Assembly: GCA_017450125.1 (NCBI GenBank)
Contig: JAFSWZ010000019.1
Location: 1-64,000, forward strand
DNA from: Synergistaceae bacterium
GTDB lineage: Bacteria; Synergistota; Synergistia; Synergistales; Aminobacteriaceae
Direction: 5' to 3'
DNA length: 64,000 nucleotides
A program made the translations under genes and the position numbers. Below the pieces are notes generated by a model. That model ran no database searches. It was not told where the DNA came from and worked only from the letters and a program-made list of their open reading frames with translations. Below are positions 34,287 through 42,620 of this stretch, one piece after another; position 1 is the first letter of the stretch; the number at the start of each line of letters is the position of its first letter.

Positions 34287-36569
34287 ATGCAGTTTACACA
34301 GAAAAATTTCGGGCTCTTCGGCGAGTTTTACCCGGAGCTTGCTCATTACGGACAGGCCGCCAACAACGCACTTGCTTCTGACAGGAATATATGCCTCCTG
34401 AACTTGGGGAGGATAGCTGAAACAATCGTCAAGCATTTGTGCCAGCACAGCAATATTCCCTACAAGCACAGTCATGACCCTGTGCAGGCCTTAGCTAATG
34501 CCGGGATAATCGGTGAAGATATACGCCTCAAGATAGATACGCTCCTCGAAGTCAGGGATGATGCCCTGCGTGATGATTATGATTCCGACATGGCATGTAT
34601 AAGGATGTTCACGACGGCCTACGAGCTGTGCGAATGGTTCGTGTCCCGCAGAAAGTTCGACTTCCTCAACGGGCTTCTTCCCGCCGGAGCATCTTCCTCG
34701 CCCCTGTCTGAGGCGGCAGGTCTGGGCTCTGAGGCAGAGGAGAGCCTCTACACGTGGACGCGTTACAGCCTTCTGTGCTTGGGGAACATCGGCGAGTTCC
34801 TCTGCGACTTTCTGGGCAAGAAGTACGCGCAAGAGATGGAGGATTATGACCGCCAGAGCTTCAAGCAGGCCGACACCTCAGAGAAAGAAGAAATCCTGAA
34901 GCGCAACGGAATAATCGGCGACGAGCAGAAGGACATCCTCTACAAGCTCCGTGATGCAAGGAACAGGGCGGTTCACCAGCGCGAGTCTTCTTCGGAGAGG
35001 GCAGAGCAGCTCATTGACGAGGCACTGCAGCTGTGTGCGTGGACGTTCAGGAAGATAGCTGAAGCCGGAGACGCGGTGAAGGGCAAGATAGCCGACGTAA
35101 CTTCGGAGGGGGAAATAAGCGTAGACATCGGGCCGTTAGCCGGAGTGGTGAACAGCGACGAGAAGCCGGAAAATACCGAGTGCGAGAGCGGGGACGTGTA
35201 CTCGTTCAGGATTGTGAGCAACCCGAAGGACACAGCAGAGCCGTTATACTTGAGCATGAAGGACGCAGACGCAAAGTCTGAAGGCACGTCCGGCGCGGAA
35301 GAAAGCAGGCCGGTGATTGCTGTTTCGGCGGGAGGAAACGCGGACTTTCTGCGTGTGTGCCAGATCGGCAACGAGAACGAGATTATTCGCGCCCTCGAGG
35401 GCGGAGCAGACCCTAGCTCGAAGACGATGGACGGCACGACAACCCTTATGCTGGCGGCACAGCACGGCAAGGCACGTGTAATCGACGCACTCATAGGACG
35501 CGGAGTTTCGCCGAACGCACGAAACATCAGCAGGCACACTGCTCTGATGTTCGCGGTGCAGAACGACAACATCTACGCGGTCGATGCCCTGCTGAACCAC
35601 AACGCCAACGTTTTCGCACTGGACTGCGACGGCAAGACTGCGATGGATTACGTTGTGTCGGCGGCACCCTACGGCCGGAAAATCGCCAAGAAGCTGAAGC
35701 GCAAAGCCGAGACGCTGTTCCTCGAACTCTGCAAGGGCAACGACGAGAGCAAGATAATCAGTGCGATGAACCACAACGCTAACCCCAACGCCAAGACCTT
35801 GAACGCGAAGACGACGGCACTAATGCTCCTAGTGTCTCATCACAGGGCGGAACTCATCGAGATGCTGCTTCGCAGGGGAGCGCGCGTGAACGACAAGGAC
35901 TCGAAGGGCAAGACTGCGCTGATGTTTGCGGCGGAGAGCAACACGACTGAAGCTGTGAGGACGCTGCTGGATTATGAGGCAGACATTTACGCGGAGGACG
36001 GCAAGGGGCATGATGCGCTGTATTACGCGGAGAAGAATCCGAGAACGTGCCACGACGCGGAACTTTTAGCCCTGCTCGGCAAGAAACAGCCCGCCGTTGA
36101 TGAGCCGGAAGGACCTGTACCAGAAACGCCGGAAGAGCCCGAAGCACTGACGCAGGAGCAGGAGGCGGAAGCCAGCGAGGCACTCAGGATGACACTTCAG
36201 CGCGACATCCTCAAAATCTGCAGGGCAGGAAGCCCCGAAGACCTCACACAAGCACTCGAAGCCGGAGTTTCCATCGACGTAACCAGCAAAGAAAACGCGA
36301 CTCCCTTGATGTTCGCGGCACAGAGCAACACCGCAGAAATCGTCGACATGCTCATCACCGCCGGTGCAGACCTCAACGCTCAGGACAACTCAGGAAGCAC
36401 AGCACTATTCTACGCGGCATACAGGAACACAGAAGACGTTGTAGAAGCACTGCTCGCGGCGGGAGCTGACAAGACCATCACCAACAACGCGGGGCTTTCG
36501 GCACTCGATTACGCACGGAGAAACTACAGGCTCGAGGACACGGAAGCTCTGAGAAAACTTGAAGCATAA
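34287..36569 (+). CDS. HEPN-like (DUF4145) duplication fused to ankyrin repeats
   Basis: 760 residues, no signal peptide, so probably cytoplasmic. Residues 1-125 resemble the DUF4145/HEPN-type domain found at the N terminus of some HsdR proteins. A second copy spans about 155-260 and keeps the Arg-x4-His pattern (RNRAVH, 225-230), whereas the first has Arg where His is expected (VRDDALRDD, 89-97). A short beta-rich linker follows, then about ten ankyrin repeats in two blocks (roughly 345-600 and 635-757) split by a Pro/Glu-rich stretch. HEPN proteins are often RNases of toxin or antiviral systems; whether this one cleaves RNA is inference. CAGGAG precedes the ATG. It stands alone between two metabolic units. 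Confidence 0.78.
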   Translation: MQFTQKNFGLFGEFYPELAHYGQAANNALASDRNICLLNLGRIAETIVKHLCQHSNIPYKHSHDPVQALANAGIIGEDIRLKIDTLLEVRDDALRDDYDSDMACIRMFTTAYELCEWFVSRRKFDFLNGLLPAGASSSPLSEAAGLGSEAEESLYTWTRYSLLCLGNIGEFLCDFLGKKYAQEMEDYDRQSFKQADTSEKEEILKRNGIIGDEQKDILYKLRDARNRAVHQRESSSERAEQLIDEALQLCAWTFRKIAEAGDAVKGKIADVTSEGEISVDIGPLAGVVNSDEKPENTECESGDVYSFRIVSNPKDTAEPLYLSMKDADAKSEGTSGAEESRPVIAVSAGGNADFLRVCQIGNENEIIRALEGGADPSSKTMDGTTTLMLAAQHGKARVIDALIGRGVSPNARNISRHTALMFAVQNDNIYAVDALLNHNANVFALDCDGKTAMDYVVSAAPYGRKIAKKLKRKAETLFLELCKGNDESKIISAMNHNANPNAKTLNAKTTALMLLVSHHRAELIEMLLRRGARVNDKDSKGKTALMFAAESNTTEAVRTLLDYEADIYAEDGKGHDALYYAEKNPRTCHDAELLALLGKKQPAVDEPEGPVPETPEEPEALTQEQEAEASEALRMTLQRDILKICRAGSPEDLTQALEAGVSIDVTSKENATPLMFAAQSNTAEIVDMLITAGADLNAQDNSGSTALFYAAYRNTEDVVEALLAAGADKTITNNAGLSALDYARRNYRLEDTEALRKLEA

Positions 36570-36669: not shown

Positions 36670-38298
36670 ATGCCCATCACTGATTTGCTCGAACGCAACG
36701 CAAAACTTTACGGGGATGAAGTCGCTCTCGTCGAGATTAACCCCGAGCAGGAAGAACCCATACGTATTACATGGAAAGAATACGCGCTGATTCAGCCGAC
36801 ATCCTCAAAACCTTACAGGCGCGACATAACTTGGGAAGTCTTTGACGAGAAAGCTAACCGTGTCGCAAATATGCTACTTTCGCGCGGCATCAAGAAGGGG
36901 CAGAAGGTAGCAATCCTCCTCATGAACTGCCTCGAATGGCTGCCTATATACTTCGGGATTCTCAAGACCGGCGCAATAGCTGTCCCTCTGAACTTCCGCT
37001 ATTCCTCAGAAGAGATAGAGTACTGCGTGAACTTGGCCGATGTTGATGTGCTGTTCTTCGGCCCGGAGTTCATCGGCAGGGTTGAAAACACCGTGCTGGC
37101 TCTCGGGGACAAGTGCCTGCTGTTCTTCGTCGGGGATAACTGCCCGTCGTTCGCGGAGAGCTACAACAACGCTGTGAACAACTGCTCCTCGAGCGCGCCG
37201 AAGATTCTCGTTGAGGACACTGACGAGGCGGCTATATACTTCTCTTCCGGCACAACAGGCTTCCCGAAGGCGATACTCCATAACCACACTGCACTTCTTC
37301 AGTCAGCACGGATGGAGGCCAAGCACCACCTTACGACTCATGATGATGTGTTCCTGTGCATTCCTCCGCTCTACCACACAGGCGCAAAAATGCACTGGTT
37401 CGGCTCTCTCTACACCGGCAGCCGCGCAGTAATCCTCAAAGGCACATCACCGAAGGCGATTCTTGACGTTGTGTCGTGGGAAGGCTGTACGATTGTGTGG
37501 CTGTTAGTTCCGTGGGCACAGGACATACTTACCGCGCTCGACAGAGGAGACATCAAACTTGAGGGGCGGCATCTCTCGCAGTGGCGGTTAATGCACATCG
37601 GTGCTCAGCCTGTACCTCCAGCACTCATCAAGCACTGGCTGGACTACTTCCCTGACCACAAGTACGACACGAATTACGGCCTCTCGGAGTCAACCGGGCC
37701 GGGCTGTGTTCATCTTGGCCTCGAGAACATTCACAAGGTCGGAGCAATCGGCGTGCCGGGCTACGGCTGGGAGCTGAAGATTGTCGACAACAACGGAAAC
37801 CCAGTAAAGCAGGGAGAAACCGGCGAACTCTGCGTGAAGGGGCCGGGCGTAATGCTGTGCTACTACCACAATCCCGGCGCGACGCACGAGAGCATTCGGG
37901 ACGGCTGGCTTTTCACTGGAGATATGGCGATGATGGATTCGGACGGCTTTGTGTGGCTCGTTGACCGCAAGAAGGACGTGGTCATTATGGGCGGAGAGAA
38001 CATTTACCCCGTGCAGATTGAGAACTTCTTGGCGGGACACCCGAAGGTTCATGATGTTGCTGTTATCGGTCTTCCTGAACCGAGACTCGGCGAAATTCCA
38101 GCGGCAATAATTCAGGTGAAGAAGGGCATGAAGTGCACAGCCGAAGAGATAGACAGATTCTGTCTCGGCCTTCCGCGCTACAAGAGGCCGCGCAAAATCA
38201 TTTTCGCTGATGTTCCGCGCAACCCGACCGGCAAAATCGAGAAGCCGAAGCTCCGCGAAATGTACGCGCACGGAAGCAGCTTTCCTGAGGCCGAATAA
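36670..38298 (+). CDS. acyl-CoA synthetase (AMP-forming)
   Basis: About 542 residues of the ANL superfamily. The ATP loop YFSSGTTGFPKAIL is near residue 190, the NYGLSESTGPG motif near residue 335, GDMAMMD and DRKKDVVIMGGENIYP lie in the hinge region, and the C-terminal Lys is in NPTGKIEKPKL. It activates a carboxylic acid with ATP and CoA; the chain type is not clear. The ATG at 36670 was chosen by the family start, with AGAGGGA 12 bases upstream; a GTG at 36646 is possible. It overlaps the next gene by one base (TAATG). Confidence 0.9.
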   Translation: MPITDLLERNAKLYGDEVALVEINPEQEEPIRITWKEYALIQPTSSKPYRRDITWEVFDEKANRVANMLLSRGIKKGQKVAILLMNCLEWLPIYFGILKTGAIAVPLNFRYSSEEIEYCVNLADVDVLFFGPEFIGRVENTVLALGDKCLLFFVGDNCPSFAESYNNAVNNCSSSAPKILVEDTDEAAIYFSSGTTGFPKAILHNHTALLQSARMEAKHHLTTHDDVFLCIPPLYHTGAKMHWFGSLYTGSRAVILKGTSPKAILDVVSWEGCTIVWLLVPWAQDILTALDRGDIKLEGRHLSQWRLMHIGAQPVPPALIKHWLDYFPDHKYDTNYGLSESTGPGCVHLGLENIHKVGAIGVPGYGWELKIVDNNGNPVKQGETGELCVKGPGVMLCYYHNPGATHESIRDGWLFTGDMAMMDSDGFVWLVDRKKDVVIMGGENIYPVQIENFLAGHPKVHDVAVIGLPEPRLGEIPAAIIQVKKGMKCTAEEIDRFCLGLPRYKRPRKIIFADVPRNPTGKIEKPKLREMYAHGSSFPEAE

Positions 38299-39176
38299 TG
38301 TACGAGCTGATTCACGTTAAGGGGCAGAGCTATTACATACAGAGCCCCGCAAAAATCGGGCTCGTGAAGCTGGAAGGTAATAATGTCTGCCTCATCGACA
38401 GCGGGAGCGATAAGGAAGCGGGGAGAAAAGTACGGCAGATTCTCGACGCTAACGGCTGGACTCTGACGGCAATCTACAACACTCACTCGAACGCTGACCA
38501 CATCGGCGGCAACAAGTACCTTCACGCTCAGACGGGGTGCAGGATTTACGCTCCTGATGCTGAGTGCGCGTTCACGCGTCATCCCGTACTTGAGCCGTCG
38601 TTCTTGTACGGTGGCTTCCCGGTGAAGGAACTGCGGCACAAGTTCCTGATGGCTCAGGAGAGTCCCGCCGAGTACCTCACGCCTGAAGTTATGCCCGAAG
38701 GATGGGAGGTTATTCCTCTGCCCGGACACTTCTTCAGTATGGCGGGTTTTCGGACTCCTGATAACGTTGTGTATCTTGCGGACTGCCTGTCGAGTGCCGA
38801 AACGCTGGCCAAGTACCAGATAACTTTCCTCTATGATGTTGAAGCATACATCTCTACGCTGGAGATGGTGAAGACGATGAAGGCTGATGTGTTCGTGCCC
38901 TCACATGCGCCGGTAACAGAGAACATTGCGGAGCTCGCACAGCTCAACATCGACAAGGCTAACGAGGTCGCAGACACGATAGCGGAAATCTGCCGTACTC
39001 CTCTGAACTTTGAGGCGGTGCTTCAGAGGCTGTCTGCTGAGCTGAACCTCACGATGACGTTCGAACAATACGCGCTTGTAGGAAGCACGGTGCGTTCTTA
39101 CCTGTCGTGGATGAAGGAGAGCGGAAGGCTGAGGGCGTATTTTGCGGATAACCTGTTACTGTGGGAGGCAGTGTGA
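38298..39176 (+). CDS. MBL-fold metal-dependent hydrolase
   Basis: 292 residues. The metal motif THSNADHIGG is near residue 60 and further ligands are in LPGHFFSMAGF and YLADCLSS; a helical C-terminal extension (about 215-292) resembles that of other multi-domain MBL hydrolases. Translation is coupled to the acyl-CoA synthetase by the TAATG overlap, so it may be a thioesterase-like or lactone hydrolase in the same pathway; that is inference. A strong terminator follows. Confidence 0.85.
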   Translation: MYELIHVKGQSYYIQSPAKIGLVKLEGNNVCLIDSGSDKEAGRKVRQILDANGWTLTAIYNTHSNADHIGGNKYLHAQTGCRIYAPDAECAFTRHPVLEPSFLYGGFPVKELRHKFLMAQESPAEYLTPEVMPEGWEVIPLPGHFFSMAGFRTPDNVVYLADCLSSAETLAKYQITFLYDVEAYISTLEMVKTMKADVFVPSHAPVTENIAELAQLNIDKANEVADTIAEICRTPLNFEAVLQRLSAELNLTMTFEQYALVGSTVRSYLSWMKESGRLRAYFADNLLLWEAV

Positions 39177-39184
39177 GGAATTTG

Positions 39185-39214
39185 CTCCCTCTGTGTTAAT
39201 GGCATCAGGGGGAG
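39185..39214 (+). terminator. intrinsic terminator after the MBL hydrolase gene
   Basis: CTCCCTCTG (39185-39193) pairs over nine positions with CAGGGGGAG (39206-39214), followed by AAATTTTTA. Confidence 0.8.
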
Positions 39215-39352
39215 AAATTTTTACATTTTACGAGAAAGGAACGTTGACAATGACGGAAAAAATCGTTAAACTGAACCACGAACCCTATCGATTGTCTTCA
39301 TGAAGGCAGAATCGAACATGTAGACATCTTCAGAGCCTTCGGAATCCTGCTT

Positions 39353-41818
39353 ATGGTTATGGGTCATATAGGATTCGGAGGAGAGTTTGACCACTTCATC
39401 CACGCTTTCCACATGCCCATGTTCTTCATCGTGTCGGGAATGTTCTTCGAGCCCTCGTACAAACGTTTCTGCGGCACATCAGCGAATCCCTGTTCTTCCT
39501 TCCTGAAACGCAAAGCACAGACACTGCTTATCCCGTATGTATGCTTCGGAAGCCTTCATTATGCTCTGTGGGCTCTAAGGCACTGGCGAACCGTAAACTA
39601 TCTTTCTCCGCTGCTGCACTTGATGTCCGTCAACACTTACGCACTGCCTTATGCGGGCGCGCTCTGGTTTCTGACCGCCTTATTCCTCACCGAAGCCGCG
39701 TACTGCATAATCTTCCGCTGTGTGCGAAGTGAATACATCAGGCACGCAGTCATCATCCTTCTTACTCTGGCAGGACATGCCGCGTATTACTTCTGCCCCG
39801 TAACTCTGCCTTTTGCCGGAGGAGCTGCCCTAGTCGGTCTCGGACTGTACCACATCGGGGCAATGCTCAGGCAGCACAGCAGACTTTTCACGCTGTCTCT
39901 GGGAAAAACGCTGGCACTGGGAACAGTTACAGGAGCATTAATTTTCCTCAACGGTTACGTGAACGTGAGGATAGGCGTTTACGGATTTGTTCCGCTGTTC
40001 TACGTCAATGTTCTGCTGTCGTGCATTGTCGGGATGAGCCTAGCTGAGATACTGCACAGAACTTTTCAGGGCACATTGATTGACGGCTGCCTTCAGAGCG
40101 TAGGGAAAAACTCCATCGTGTACTTGTGCCTGAATCAGATCGTTATTCTTGCGGCGTTCAAGCTCTCAGGAAGAGTATTCGGGAATGCTGAGGCTCACGG
40201 AAAGCTGATGCTTCTGGCTGAACATTGCGGAGTGCTGGCTGTCTCGATGGTTGCGCTGATGTTCATCAGTGTGATTTTCTCGCGCACTGCGCTGAAGGCG
40301 GCTCTCGGCAAATCATCAAGCCCGCGCTGTCTCAAGTTTGCGGTGTGTTCTGCGCTTGCGGTGCTGCTTCTCACATCTGCAGGAGTGAACTTCGCGGGGC
40401 ATTATCGGTTGAAGGCTTCATATGCGGATGTACACCTGCCGGACTGGAGCAGGATTGACACCTCACCTCTGCAGGATAAAGGTACGCTCAGAGAAATTAT
40501 CGCGCTCAGCACCAAGTACCTTCTTGTTACGCGGTGGAACGAGCCGCACTGGTATGCATTCTCGCAGAACAGCAACACGAGTGCTCCGCTCGGACTGTCA
40601 GCCGCCGCAAGAAGAAATGTTTTGCGGAGCGCAGAGTCCTTCAGGAACTGGCGGGACAACGACTATCTCTATGTTGCCAACACTCTTGAAGAATGCCCGG
40701 ACGTAGTGCCCGGAGAAAGTGCCTTGAGGGGTTGGGCACACACATGCTTTATCCTGTCCTCAGTGCTCAGATTCAACATTTACGAGGAAGGGATTACGGG
40801 AATCCCGAAAGATGACGCTGTGAAGATGGTCTGCAAGCTGACCGCCACTCTCGCACGTAATCACTGCTCTAACTCTCACGGCGGCTGGGGCAGACTCTGG
40901 CAGAGCGCGCTGTGGGCAGAGAACATAGCTTTTGCGGGCTGGCTTATGTGGAATGACCTCTCGGAGCAGGACCGAGCTTTCGTCTTGAACATGCTGGTTT
41001 ACGAGGCAGACAGGTTTATAGGCTATGAAGTTCCGTATTACAGAGACAGTGAAGGCCGCGTGATTTCCCCTGACGACACAAAAGCCGAAGAGAACGCGTG
41101 GAACTCGCGGATACTGGCATTAGCTGCGTGTATGCTGCCGGAGCACGAGCACTGCAGGCTGTGGGAGGCGAAACTTGCTGAGCTCCTGCTGTCCTCGACC
41201 GCCGTCCCTGAAGATACGTCATCAGAAAGAAGCATTGACGGCGTGAAAGTCGGGGATGTCCTGCACGGCTCTAACATAAATTCAGACGGTACTGTAATGA
41301 ATCACGGGCTGTACCACATAGACTACATGACCACTACGATAGAGGGCATGACCGGCACAGCGATAATTTACGCGCTCGCAGGCCGTAAAGTCCCGGAGTC
41401 CGCATTCTTCAACCATGACATTATTTATTCTGCGCTGGTCAATCTCGACTTGGGCACATATGACAGCAGCAAAGCTGGACATCATTTTTACGGCAGGACA
41501 GAGGACGGGATGCCCGCACCTGAACTTGACATGCCCGGCGTTAATGACTGGGGCGGAAAGTGGTTCACGAGCTGTTACCTGGCTGATACTGAGGCAGAAA
41601 TTTTCGGGCTGGACAAAGACTGTCCCGAAGGCCTGAAGGCTTCAGACTGGGCAGATGTTCACCTCAAAGAAGTAATGCTTATGGTCAGCAGAAACACGAC
41701 GGGTAAGATTTTCGGTGAAGGCGAAAATTACTTTGTTTCCGGCGAGACATACGCAATGCAGAACCTGTGCAAGGCGTATCTTCTGCGGGTATATAATCGT
41801 CAGCGCAAGGAGGACTGA
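39353..41818 (+). CDS. membrane acyltransferase fused to a large C-terminal domain; 5' end disturbed
   Basis: Residues 1-320 are an acyltransferase-3 (OafA/WecH-type) membrane domain, about ten helices. The family's first helix, with the conserved catalytic His, reads DIFRAFGILLMVMGH when the frame is followed upstream of the ATG at 39353. That frame is open only back to 39275 and has no ATG/GTG/TTG before 39353. An ATG with a good AAAGGA site at 39250 lies in a different frame and stops after 17 codons, so a one-base frameshift near the 5' end is likely. Residues about 345-821 form a soluble helical domain with Trp/His-rich motifs (NHCSNSHGGWGRLWQSALWAE, VMNHGLYHIDYM) that looks like an alpha/alpha-toroid polysaccharide-active fold; I cannot name the family. 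The lgt ribosome site lies in its last codons. Confidence 0.7.
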   Translation: MVMGHIGFGGEFDHFIHAFHMPMFFIVSGMFFEPSYKRFCGTSANPCSSFLKRKAQTLLIPYVCFGSLHYALWALRHWRTVNYLSPLLHLMSVNTYALPYAGALWFLTALFLTEAAYCIIFRCVRSEYIRHAVIILLTLAGHAAYYFCPVTLPFAGGAALVGLGLYHIGAMLRQHSRLFTLSLGKTLALGTVTGALIFLNGYVNVRIGVYGFVPLFYVNVLLSCIVGMSLAEILHRTFQGTLIDGCLQSVGKNSIVYLCLNQIVILAAFKLSGRVFGNAEAHGKLMLLAEHCGVLAVSMVALMFISVIFSRTALKAALGKSSSPRCLKFAVCSALAVLLLTSAGVNFAGHYRLKASYADVHLPDWSRIDTSPLQDKGTLREIIALSTKYLLVTRWNEPHWYAFSQNSNTSAPLGLSAAARRNVLRSAESFRNWRDNDYLYVANTLEECPDVVPGESALRGWAHTCFILSSVLRFNIYEEGITGIPKDDAVKMVCKLTATLARNHCSNSHGGWGRLWQSALWAENIAFAGWLMWNDLSEQDRAFVLNMLVYEADRFIGYEVPYYRDSEGRVISPDDTKAEENAWNSRILALAACMLPEHEHCRLWEAKLAELLLSSTAVPEDTSSERSIDGVKVGDVLHGSNINSDGTVMNHGLYHIDYMTTTIEGMTGTAIIYALAGRKVPESAFFNHDIIYSALVNLDLGTYDSSKAGHHFYGRTEDGMPAPELDMPGVNDWGGKWFTSCYLADTEAEIFGLDKDCPEGLKASDWADVHLKEVMLMVSRNTTGKIFGEGENYFVSGETYAMQNLCKAYLLRVYNRQRKED

Positions 41819-41825
41819 TAAATTT

Positions 41826-42620
41826 ATGTACCCTACTCTGTTCACCATCGGCAGCGTCCGCATCGACACATACAGCGTAGTGTGGTTCATCGCCCTTAGC
41901 CTCGCGATACTCTGGAGCATCCGCAGGCTCGAACTCTACCGCCTCGACGAGGACGACTCCCGCAGGGTCATGGCTGTGTCGTTCCTGTTCATGCTTCTCG
42001 GCGCAAGGTCATACGAATATATAGCGCACTGGAAGACCTACCTCGAGCACCCTTCGTACTTCCTTGACCTCAACAGAGGAGGGCTTCACGAGTTCGGAGC
42101 AGTCGCCGGAGCGTTCGTGTCCGCGTGGGTGATGTGCCTGCTCTCGCGCGGAAAAATCTCCTTCCTTAAGCTTTGTGATGTAGCTGTAATCCCCGCGTTC
42201 CTCGCTATTGCCGTTGGACGCTGGGGCTGCTTCCTCAACGGCTGCTGTCTCGGACGCGTTACGGACTTCTTCGGGGCTGTGCATTTCCCGAGAGACAGGG
42301 CAGGAGTCTTCCGCCACCCCGTGCAGGTGTACTACTCTGTCATTTCCGCCGCAATAATCGTCGTTCTGCTTCTCGTAGAACGCAGGCTCATGAAGAAGGA
42401 ACGCTACTACTCCGTGATTGCGCCTCTGGGAATGCTCCTCTACTCCCTCATGAGGATAGCCGTAACCTTCGTGCGCGACCCTCAGCCTCTCTCGTGGCTC
42501 GTGAAATATTCGTGGACGTACAGATGGATAGTTACACTGCTTCCGCTGATATGCTTATGGCTCGCGTATAGTTTACTTAGGTTAAACGCAGAAAATTCAC
42601 ATAAGCCAAACAAGCCATGA
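41826..42620 (+). CDS. lgt: prolipoprotein diacylglyceryl transferase family protein
   Basis: A 264-residue membrane enzyme of about seven helices that attaches diacylglycerol to lipoprotein precursors. It has the Lgt signature region in a divergent form: GRWGCFLNGCCLGRVTD near residue 131 and GGLHEFGAVAGAF near residue 88. Standard Lgt has NGE where this has NGC, a variant seen in a subgroup of the family. The ATG at 41826 follows AAGGAGG in the end of the preceding gene; an earlier in-frame start inside that gene is rejected. It may be a specialised relative of the housekeeping enzyme. Confidence 0.82.
   Translation: MYPTLFTIGSVRIDTYSVVWFIALSLAILWSIRRLELYRLDEDDSRRVMAVSFLFMLLGARSYEYIAHWKTYLEHPSYFLDLNRGGLHEFGAVAGAFVSAWVMCLLSRGKISFLKLCDVAVIPAFLAIAVGRWGCFLNGCCLGRVTDFFGAVHFPRDRAGVFRHPVQVYYSVISAAIIVVLLLVERRLMKKERYYSVIAPLGMLLYSLMRIAVTFVRDPQPLSWLVKYSWTYRWIVTLLPLICLWLAYSLLRLNAENSHKPNKP

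Follow-up and report, generated by a model that had tools for sequence, protein, structure and literature searches.

Many surface glycans carry groups added by AT3 acyltransferases, and how those that lack an SGNH domain find and modify their acceptor is an open question. The closest described systems are the AT3-SGNH proteins OafA, OafB, OatA and PglI, in which the ten AT3 helices are followed by an eleventh, which makes the C-terminal domain extracytoplasmic (PMC9558356, PMC9833829). In OafA the Arg and the His of the R-X10-H motif are both essential, and the R14A variant retains 0.07% of the wild-type signal (PMC7448272). An RXXR motif in the loop between helices 2 and 3 is highly, but not absolutely, conserved in the characterised AT3s. 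Where these papers discuss the fusion partners of AT3, they mention SGNH, alanine racemase and eukaryotic domains of unspecified kind, and no toroid (PMC9558356, PMC7448272, PMC9833829). Moreover, we found no literature report of an AT3-lyase or AT3-hydrolase fusion. Among polysaccharide lyases, PL8 and PL23 have a triad of Asn, His and, 8-9 residues further on, Tyr; in PL35, 12, 15, 17, 21 and 39 the His comes much later, at positions of about 400-555, in a beta domain (PMC12088678). Finally, the alpha/alpha toroid is among the depolymerase folds reported by DepoScope (PMC11326577).

We analysed a stretch of 64,000 nucleotides (termed the window), which lies on contig C19 of a 2.16 Mb genome in 43 contigs (G000) from a gut-type member of the Synergistota. 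It contains a gene whose product has two domains, AT3 followed by a predicted alpha/alpha toroid. An AT3 protein with a carbohydrate-type partner other than SGNH is of interest as a second solution that can be compared with the first. The features of the gene are as follows.

39173..41825, + strand: insert of about 2.65 kb relative to sister genomes, delimited by blastn of window positions 38901-42000 against L144 and L145
39275..41815, + strand: AT3-toroid open frame, 847 codons past the last in-frame stop
39320..40231, + strand: AT3 domain (PF01757), including the R-X10-H motif of TMH1; 81.4 bits, cut-off 31
40331..40387, + strand: TMH11, hydrophobic linker between AT3 and toroid, by hydropathy (residues 353-371 of the 847-codon frame)
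40388..41815, + strand: alpha/alpha-toroid domain, predicted to be periplasmic; model pLDDT 92.0, pTM 0.93; best structural match 8khw
40886..40903, + strand: W-G-x-x-W-Q, domain residues 168-173 (W168 and W172 100%, Q173 96% conserved)
41075..41104, + strand: D-T-K-A-E-E-N-A-W-N, putative active-site motif by conservation, domain residues 231-240
41285..41326, + strand: D-G-T-V-x-N-H-x-x-x-H-x-D-Y, putative Asn/His/Tyr catalytic segment, domain residues 301-314

The AT3-toroid fusion is real. The same two-domain gene is intact in an independent genome, the goat duodenum MAG of Synergistaceae bacterium RGIG2313 (genome G045, locus L007), so that misassembly can be ruled out as the origin of the fusion. 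The two proteins are 52% identical in the AT3 domain and 59% identical in the toroid. Differences per codon position amount to 0.40/0.28/0.59 in the AT3 domain (347 codons) and to 0.32/0.26/0.55 in the toroid (456 codons), and this excess at third positions fits selection on the protein. Two of 185 Synergistota genomes carry the toroid, each as an AT3 fusion, so that the combination described in the earlier note on this DNA does occur elsewhere. A fusion scan of 130 loci, several of which are copies of one gene, yielded 129 toroid frames. No further AT3-toroid fusion was found among them, the other loci having at most four hydrophobic segments upstream of the toroid versus 10-11 in the fusions; of the 167 relatives found in the genome collection the best 80 were kept, and the other 87 could still hold one.

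The earlier note had placed the gene in a forward-strand frame at 39353-41818 that encodes an 821-residue membrane O-acyltransferase fusion. The 821-residue frame was recovered with these coordinates, but its start is doubtful. The last in-frame stop lies at 39272-39274, and TMH1 is encoded in the frame that is open from 39275, upstream of the ATG at 39353. If translation began at 39353, the Arg of the R-X10-H motif (R20 and H31 in the 39275 frame, also present in L007) would be lost. From 39275 on, no ATG, GTG or TTG was found in frame upstream of 39353. An ATG at 39250, preceded by the ribosome-site-like sequence AAAGGA, is in a different frame that stops at 39301-39303. At its 5' end the window copy may therefore use an unusual start codon, have undergone a frameshift recently or be misassembled. 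That the gene was inactivated not long ago or is misassembled, which would be compatible with any functional reading of the protein, is possible but not probable. The missing standard start speaks for it, as does the L007 homologue, which, unlike the window copy, begins with an ordinary ATG eight codons ahead of the corresponding Val-Asp-Ile-Phe-Arg. However, the other 821 codons of the window copy are open and differ from L007 mostly at third positions, and the gene might simply use an unusual start codon.

The acyltransferase assignment itself held. Read from ATG 39353, the N-terminal domain matches PF01757 in Pfam (E 9.8e-18), which identifies it as AT3 and rules out that it is an MBOAT. 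OpgC/MdoC identity can be ruled out as well (24.6 bits versus a cut-off of 338). Hydropathy analysis of the window frame reveals eleven hydrophobic segments before the toroid, starting at residues 16, 40, 83, 129, 158, 180, 207, 238, 281, 318 and 353 of the 847-codon frame. Like OafA, OafB, OatA and PglI, the protein combines an AT3 membrane domain, R-X10-H in TMH1, and an eleventh helix with a C-terminal domain, which in the AT3-SGNH proteins is extracytoplasmic and meets the glycan. By analogy with this layout, the toroid is predicted to be periplasmic. Unlike the AT3-SGNH proteins, it has an alpha/alpha toroid where SGNH sits; the C-terminal part has no Pfam or NCBIfam match to an SGNH domain. 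It also lacks the AT3-SGNH motif GG-F/Y-XGV-D/P/V ahead of TMH2, where the sequence is GGEFDHFIHAFHMPMFF, and the AT3 motif RXXR in loop 2-3, where KRKAQT is found in the window and RKKART in L007. The FFXISG site reads FFIVSG in the window, with I changed to V, and FFFVSG in L007.

In the window the gene is flanked by an MBL-fold gene and by lgt. Matches of the window to L144 and L145 end at position 39172 and restart at 41826, with 5-7 bases in between in these sisters. A gap of 5-7 bases is all that separates the MBL-fold gene from lgt in G053 and G045, and it measures 5-12 bases in eight lgt loci of the genus (window region 38298-42620). Across 24 lgt loci of the genus, an AT3-toroid gene was never found upstream of lgt. 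In G045 the AT3-toroid gene is located elsewhere, where its neighbours are an ABC operon of the sugar type and a gene for a dicarboxylate symporter. This variable location and the absence from lgt loci indicate an accessory gene, whose neighbours in the window are uninformative on its function. The acyl-CoA synthetase and the MBL-fold protein are ruled out as partners, since their genes run directly into lgt in the sister loci that lack the fusion. A foreign base composition of the AT3-toroid gene was not seen. The window gene ends 7 bases before lgt, and the insert may bring lgt expression under its control. Further upstream, positions 34287-36569, just before the AMP-binding gene, encode a 760-residue protein with what read as ankyrin-type repeats.

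The C-terminal part (residues 345-821, of which about 460-475 form the toroid) has no Pfam or NCBIfam match at E<=10. PDB sequences were not detected at E<=10 either, neither with the single protein nor with a 50-row family profile. An AlphaFold2 model of the 477 C-terminal residues (m16bd0e4f18b5), for which 50 aligned sequences served as the input, is an alpha/alpha toroid with a pLDDT of 92.0 and a pTM of 0.93. A full-length model reproduced the toroid; confidence is mostly low in its AT3 half, and the arrangement of the domains cannot be read from it. When the predicted toroid was compared with known structures by VIA-align, the top match was the PL35 lyase GAGase VII (8khw; Z 21.8, 3.2 A over 299 residues), followed by chondroitinase 9o3q (Z 21.0), GH105 (19.5) and PL35 GAGase II (8khv; 19.0). 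GH88, human dermatan sulfate epimerase 1 (18.6-19.0) and PL38 5noa (18.4) were found at about 18-19.5, and PL15, PL39 and PL17 were listed after them. The fold is also that of squalene-hopene cyclases and drimenyl diphosphate synthase, whose Z of 17-18 is lower than that of the PL35 lyases (19-22). Since squalene cyclases reach such values on the shared fold, the fold alone gives no function. Foldseek against the PDB returned 466 matches at E<=10 and none at E<=0.001; a sugar epimerase, a GH76 mannanase and linalool dehydratase-isomerase head the list, and lyases of PL39 and PL8 come lower. A viral fold search with the toroid gave nothing at E<=0.001. Thus, structure prediction and fold search bear out the earlier note, which had seen an unrecognised, toroid-like stretch of about 475 residues resembling polysaccharide lyases or hydrolases: the clear assignment to a non-carbohydrate family that would have spoken against the note was not obtained, the cyclases ranking below PL35 in VIA-align, and the glycan-enzyme fusions and neighbours of the relatives agree with this.

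Fold likeness is not family membership. PL35 (GAGase II and VII) is the best structural match, but it has no detectable sequence similarity to the window toroid, and its catalytic His comes from a C-terminal beta-sheet domain with Mn2+. The window protein lacks any such later beta domain, as its chain ends at the toroid. PL38 (5noa, BACCELL_00875) is likewise a single-domain toroid without a beta-sheet domain, but it too shows no sequence match. The window protein has the AT3-SGNH layout without being an AT3-SGNH protein, and a toroid-lyase fold without demonstrated membership of a named family.

A genome-collection scan recovered 167 toroid loci, of which the best 80 were kept; they encode mostly separate secreted proteins. 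Four further loci came from viral contigs (IMG/VR). Within single groups, the toroid was found in 2 of 392 genomes of the order of L020, 9 of 393 of the order of L018 and 34 of 393 of the class of L030 (the Jiangella class). A tree of 78 rows includes Bacillota, Bacteroidota, Actinomycetota, Planctomycetota, Verrucomicrobiota, Armatimonadota, Acidobacteriota and others. In this tree the window and L007 form a pair (100/92), which then joins two Clostridia sequences, L008 and L020 (100/99). A Pfam/NCBIfam scan of 50 members assigned no toroid family, PHROGs holds none, and we found no literature report of one. The family is large and spans many phyla, and no Pfam, NCBIfam or PDB representative of it was found.

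Where the relatives have informative partners or neighbours, these are glycan-related. Ten of the longer proteins were scanned, and the toroid is fused to GH43 (L028), alpha-L-fucosidase (L064), a pectate-lyase/GH28-like domain (L039), NPCBM-associated and F5/8 C domains (L021, L030) or a lectin-like domain (L025); of the remaining four, two are without a match and two have VWA or FecR domains. In 4 of 84 loci (L034, L082, L027, L024) a GH88-like gene, of the unsaturated-glucuronyl-hydrolase type, lies close to the toroid gene, which it directly adjoins in L034, L027 and L024. For L024 (G587) and L027 (G588), it is the sole PF07470 match of the genome. Sulfatase-like genes are found in 5 of the 84 loci and SusC/SusD in L018, and a haloarchaeal plasmid toroid (Halocatena) sits amid sulfatase and xylanase genes. 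A single conserved partner was not detected among the 97 of 469 neighbour ORFs that were scanned.

The family also extends to a prophage. In the K. pneumoniae prophage tail fibre WP_301688482 the toroid is the C-terminus of a 650-residue protein, whose first ~120 residues match tail-fibre-type PHROGs and whose gene directly follows a TipJ-type tail gene. The fibre, a putative depolymerase, may link the window's toroid family to the toroid phage depolymerases, which are tail-borne rather than membrane-fused. No toroid match was found in 50,697 phage records at E<=0.01.

Conservation in the toroid was counted over 84 aligned rows, excluding the truncated frame L010. W172, D231, K233, E235, E236, A238 and W239 are identical in all rows and D277 in 99% of them. 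Among the 83 rows with a residue at the respective position, W168 and N306 are invariant, and Y314 (99%), H307 (96%) and H311 (95%) nearly so. The AT3-fused copies keep every residue that is 100% conserved; the Halocatena toroid, which is outside the 84 rows, has M at the position of K233. At the level of sequence, N306, H307 and Y314 look like the Asn-His-Tyr arrangement of the PL8 and PL23 chondroitin/hyaluronan lyases, in that all candidate residues lie within the toroid. The spacing differs: the His-Tyr gap is 7 residues in the window protein versus 8-9, and the Asn-His gap, with N237 or N240 taken as the partner, would be about 67-70 versus 50-55. PL8, moreover, has beta domains besides its toroid. 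In hhalign the segment DGTVMNH falls on the DGSFxQH segment of PL8, in a comparison that is not significant (E 0.58-0.77).

Taken as a whole, these data suggest to us that the AT3-toroid protein edits a glycan in the periplasm as a lyase-like enzyme tethered to the membrane, and that this editing is coupled to O-acylation, a proposal to which we give about an even chance. The ten-helix AT3 domain would receive an acyl group, which is probably acetyl, from acyl-CoA in the cytoplasm and present it at the periplasmic face. The eleventh helix would tether the toroid in the periplasm, where it may bind an acidic glycan of the uronic-acid type and cleave it, most likely by beta-elimination via the conserved Asn/His/Tyr segment. 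One chain could in this way be cut or released and O-acylated at a single place. The genome has a gene of the UDP-glucose/GDP-mannose dehydrogenase family and no GH88 match, which would make an acidic glycan of the cell's own surface a likelier target than a food polysaccharide. The predicted topology agrees with the idea of the earlier note that one protein might trim and acylate a surface glycan, and this has become our leading hypothesis. The analysis establishes the fusion, the AT3 family, the predicted toroid fold, the eleven-segment topology, the retained conserved residues and the glycan-enzyme context of the toroid family, while acyl donor, periplasmic location, cleavage, lyase chemistry, substrate and coupling are inferred. 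Against the proposal count the non-significant PL8 comparison, the invariant D231, E235 and E236, which would fit a hydrolase, the scores of squalene cyclases on the shared fold, the lack of glycan genes next to the gene and of GH88 in the genome, the uninformative full-length model, the absence of RXXR, and the missing standard start codon of the window copy.

Because of these invariant carboxylates, a glycoside hydrolase that uses E235/E236, D231 and D277 as acid/base on a neutral or acidic glycan beside the acyltransferase is the next reading to consider. We regard it as somewhat unlikely. It can draw on the conservation of these four residues, on the GH76 and epimerase folds in the top Foldseek rows and on the relatives fused to GH43 and fucosidase. 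However, the top VIA-align scores belong to lyases, N306 is invariant and Y314 99% conserved, and the GH88-like genes that adjoin the toroid in several lineages point to lyase products. These neighbours favour lyase chemistry.

Less likely again is a toroid that does not cut, and that instead holds the acceptor glycan for AT3, as the SGNH domain and linker of OafA/OafB do, or edits it like an epimerase. The topology equals that of AT3-SGNH, and the close folds include that of human dermatan sulfate epimerase 1. Nevertheless, the fused copies retain the invariant residues as a catalytic domain would, and cutting is expected of the relatives, which are secreted proteins, PUL-associated proteins or prophage tail fibres. 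A non-carbohydrate enzyme of the terpene-cyclase type is highly improbable, because squalene-hopene cyclase and drimenyl diphosphate synthase, although they do align, score lower than PL35, and because the context of the relatives, where informative, is glycan-related.

Returning to the lyase-like enzyme, a more far-reaching version of it can be put forward tentatively. One protein might couple acyl export to glycan cleavage, with the AT3 pore passing acyl groups to the chain that is being cut by the tethered toroid lyase and acylation setting where or whether the cut is made. The toroid might then represent a new lyase family of bacteria, archaea and prophage fibres. The simple secreted toroids of ~450 residues or the prophage fibre copy could yield a new glycan-cutting enzyme.

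A few individual loci deserve mention. The closest stand-alone relatives of the fused toroids, L008 (2274-5529) and L020 (3326-5703), are both adjoined by genes for a PglD/hexapeptide acyltransferase and an AMP-binding ligase, a second tie of the window's toroid clade to acyl-transfer genes. Polysaccharide deacetylase models (PdaB/PgdA) match one of the 50 toroid members, a further glycan-modifying fusion. In L113 (9094-12902, G344) the toroid gene has no signal peptide and overlaps its neighbour, which we take to be GH116-like; this suggests an intracellular glycan-degrading pair. Many toroids of the Jiangella class (L156-L185) are in frames of 740-900 codons with an uncharacterised N-terminal part of ~350 residues. 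Finally, the 727 kb K. pneumoniae "plasmid" of L005 (NZ_CP129873.1, 702561-719106) carries lepA, lepB, rnc, era, recO and pdxJ beside the prophage, and the record looks like a chromosome, or an integrated or misassembled replicon.
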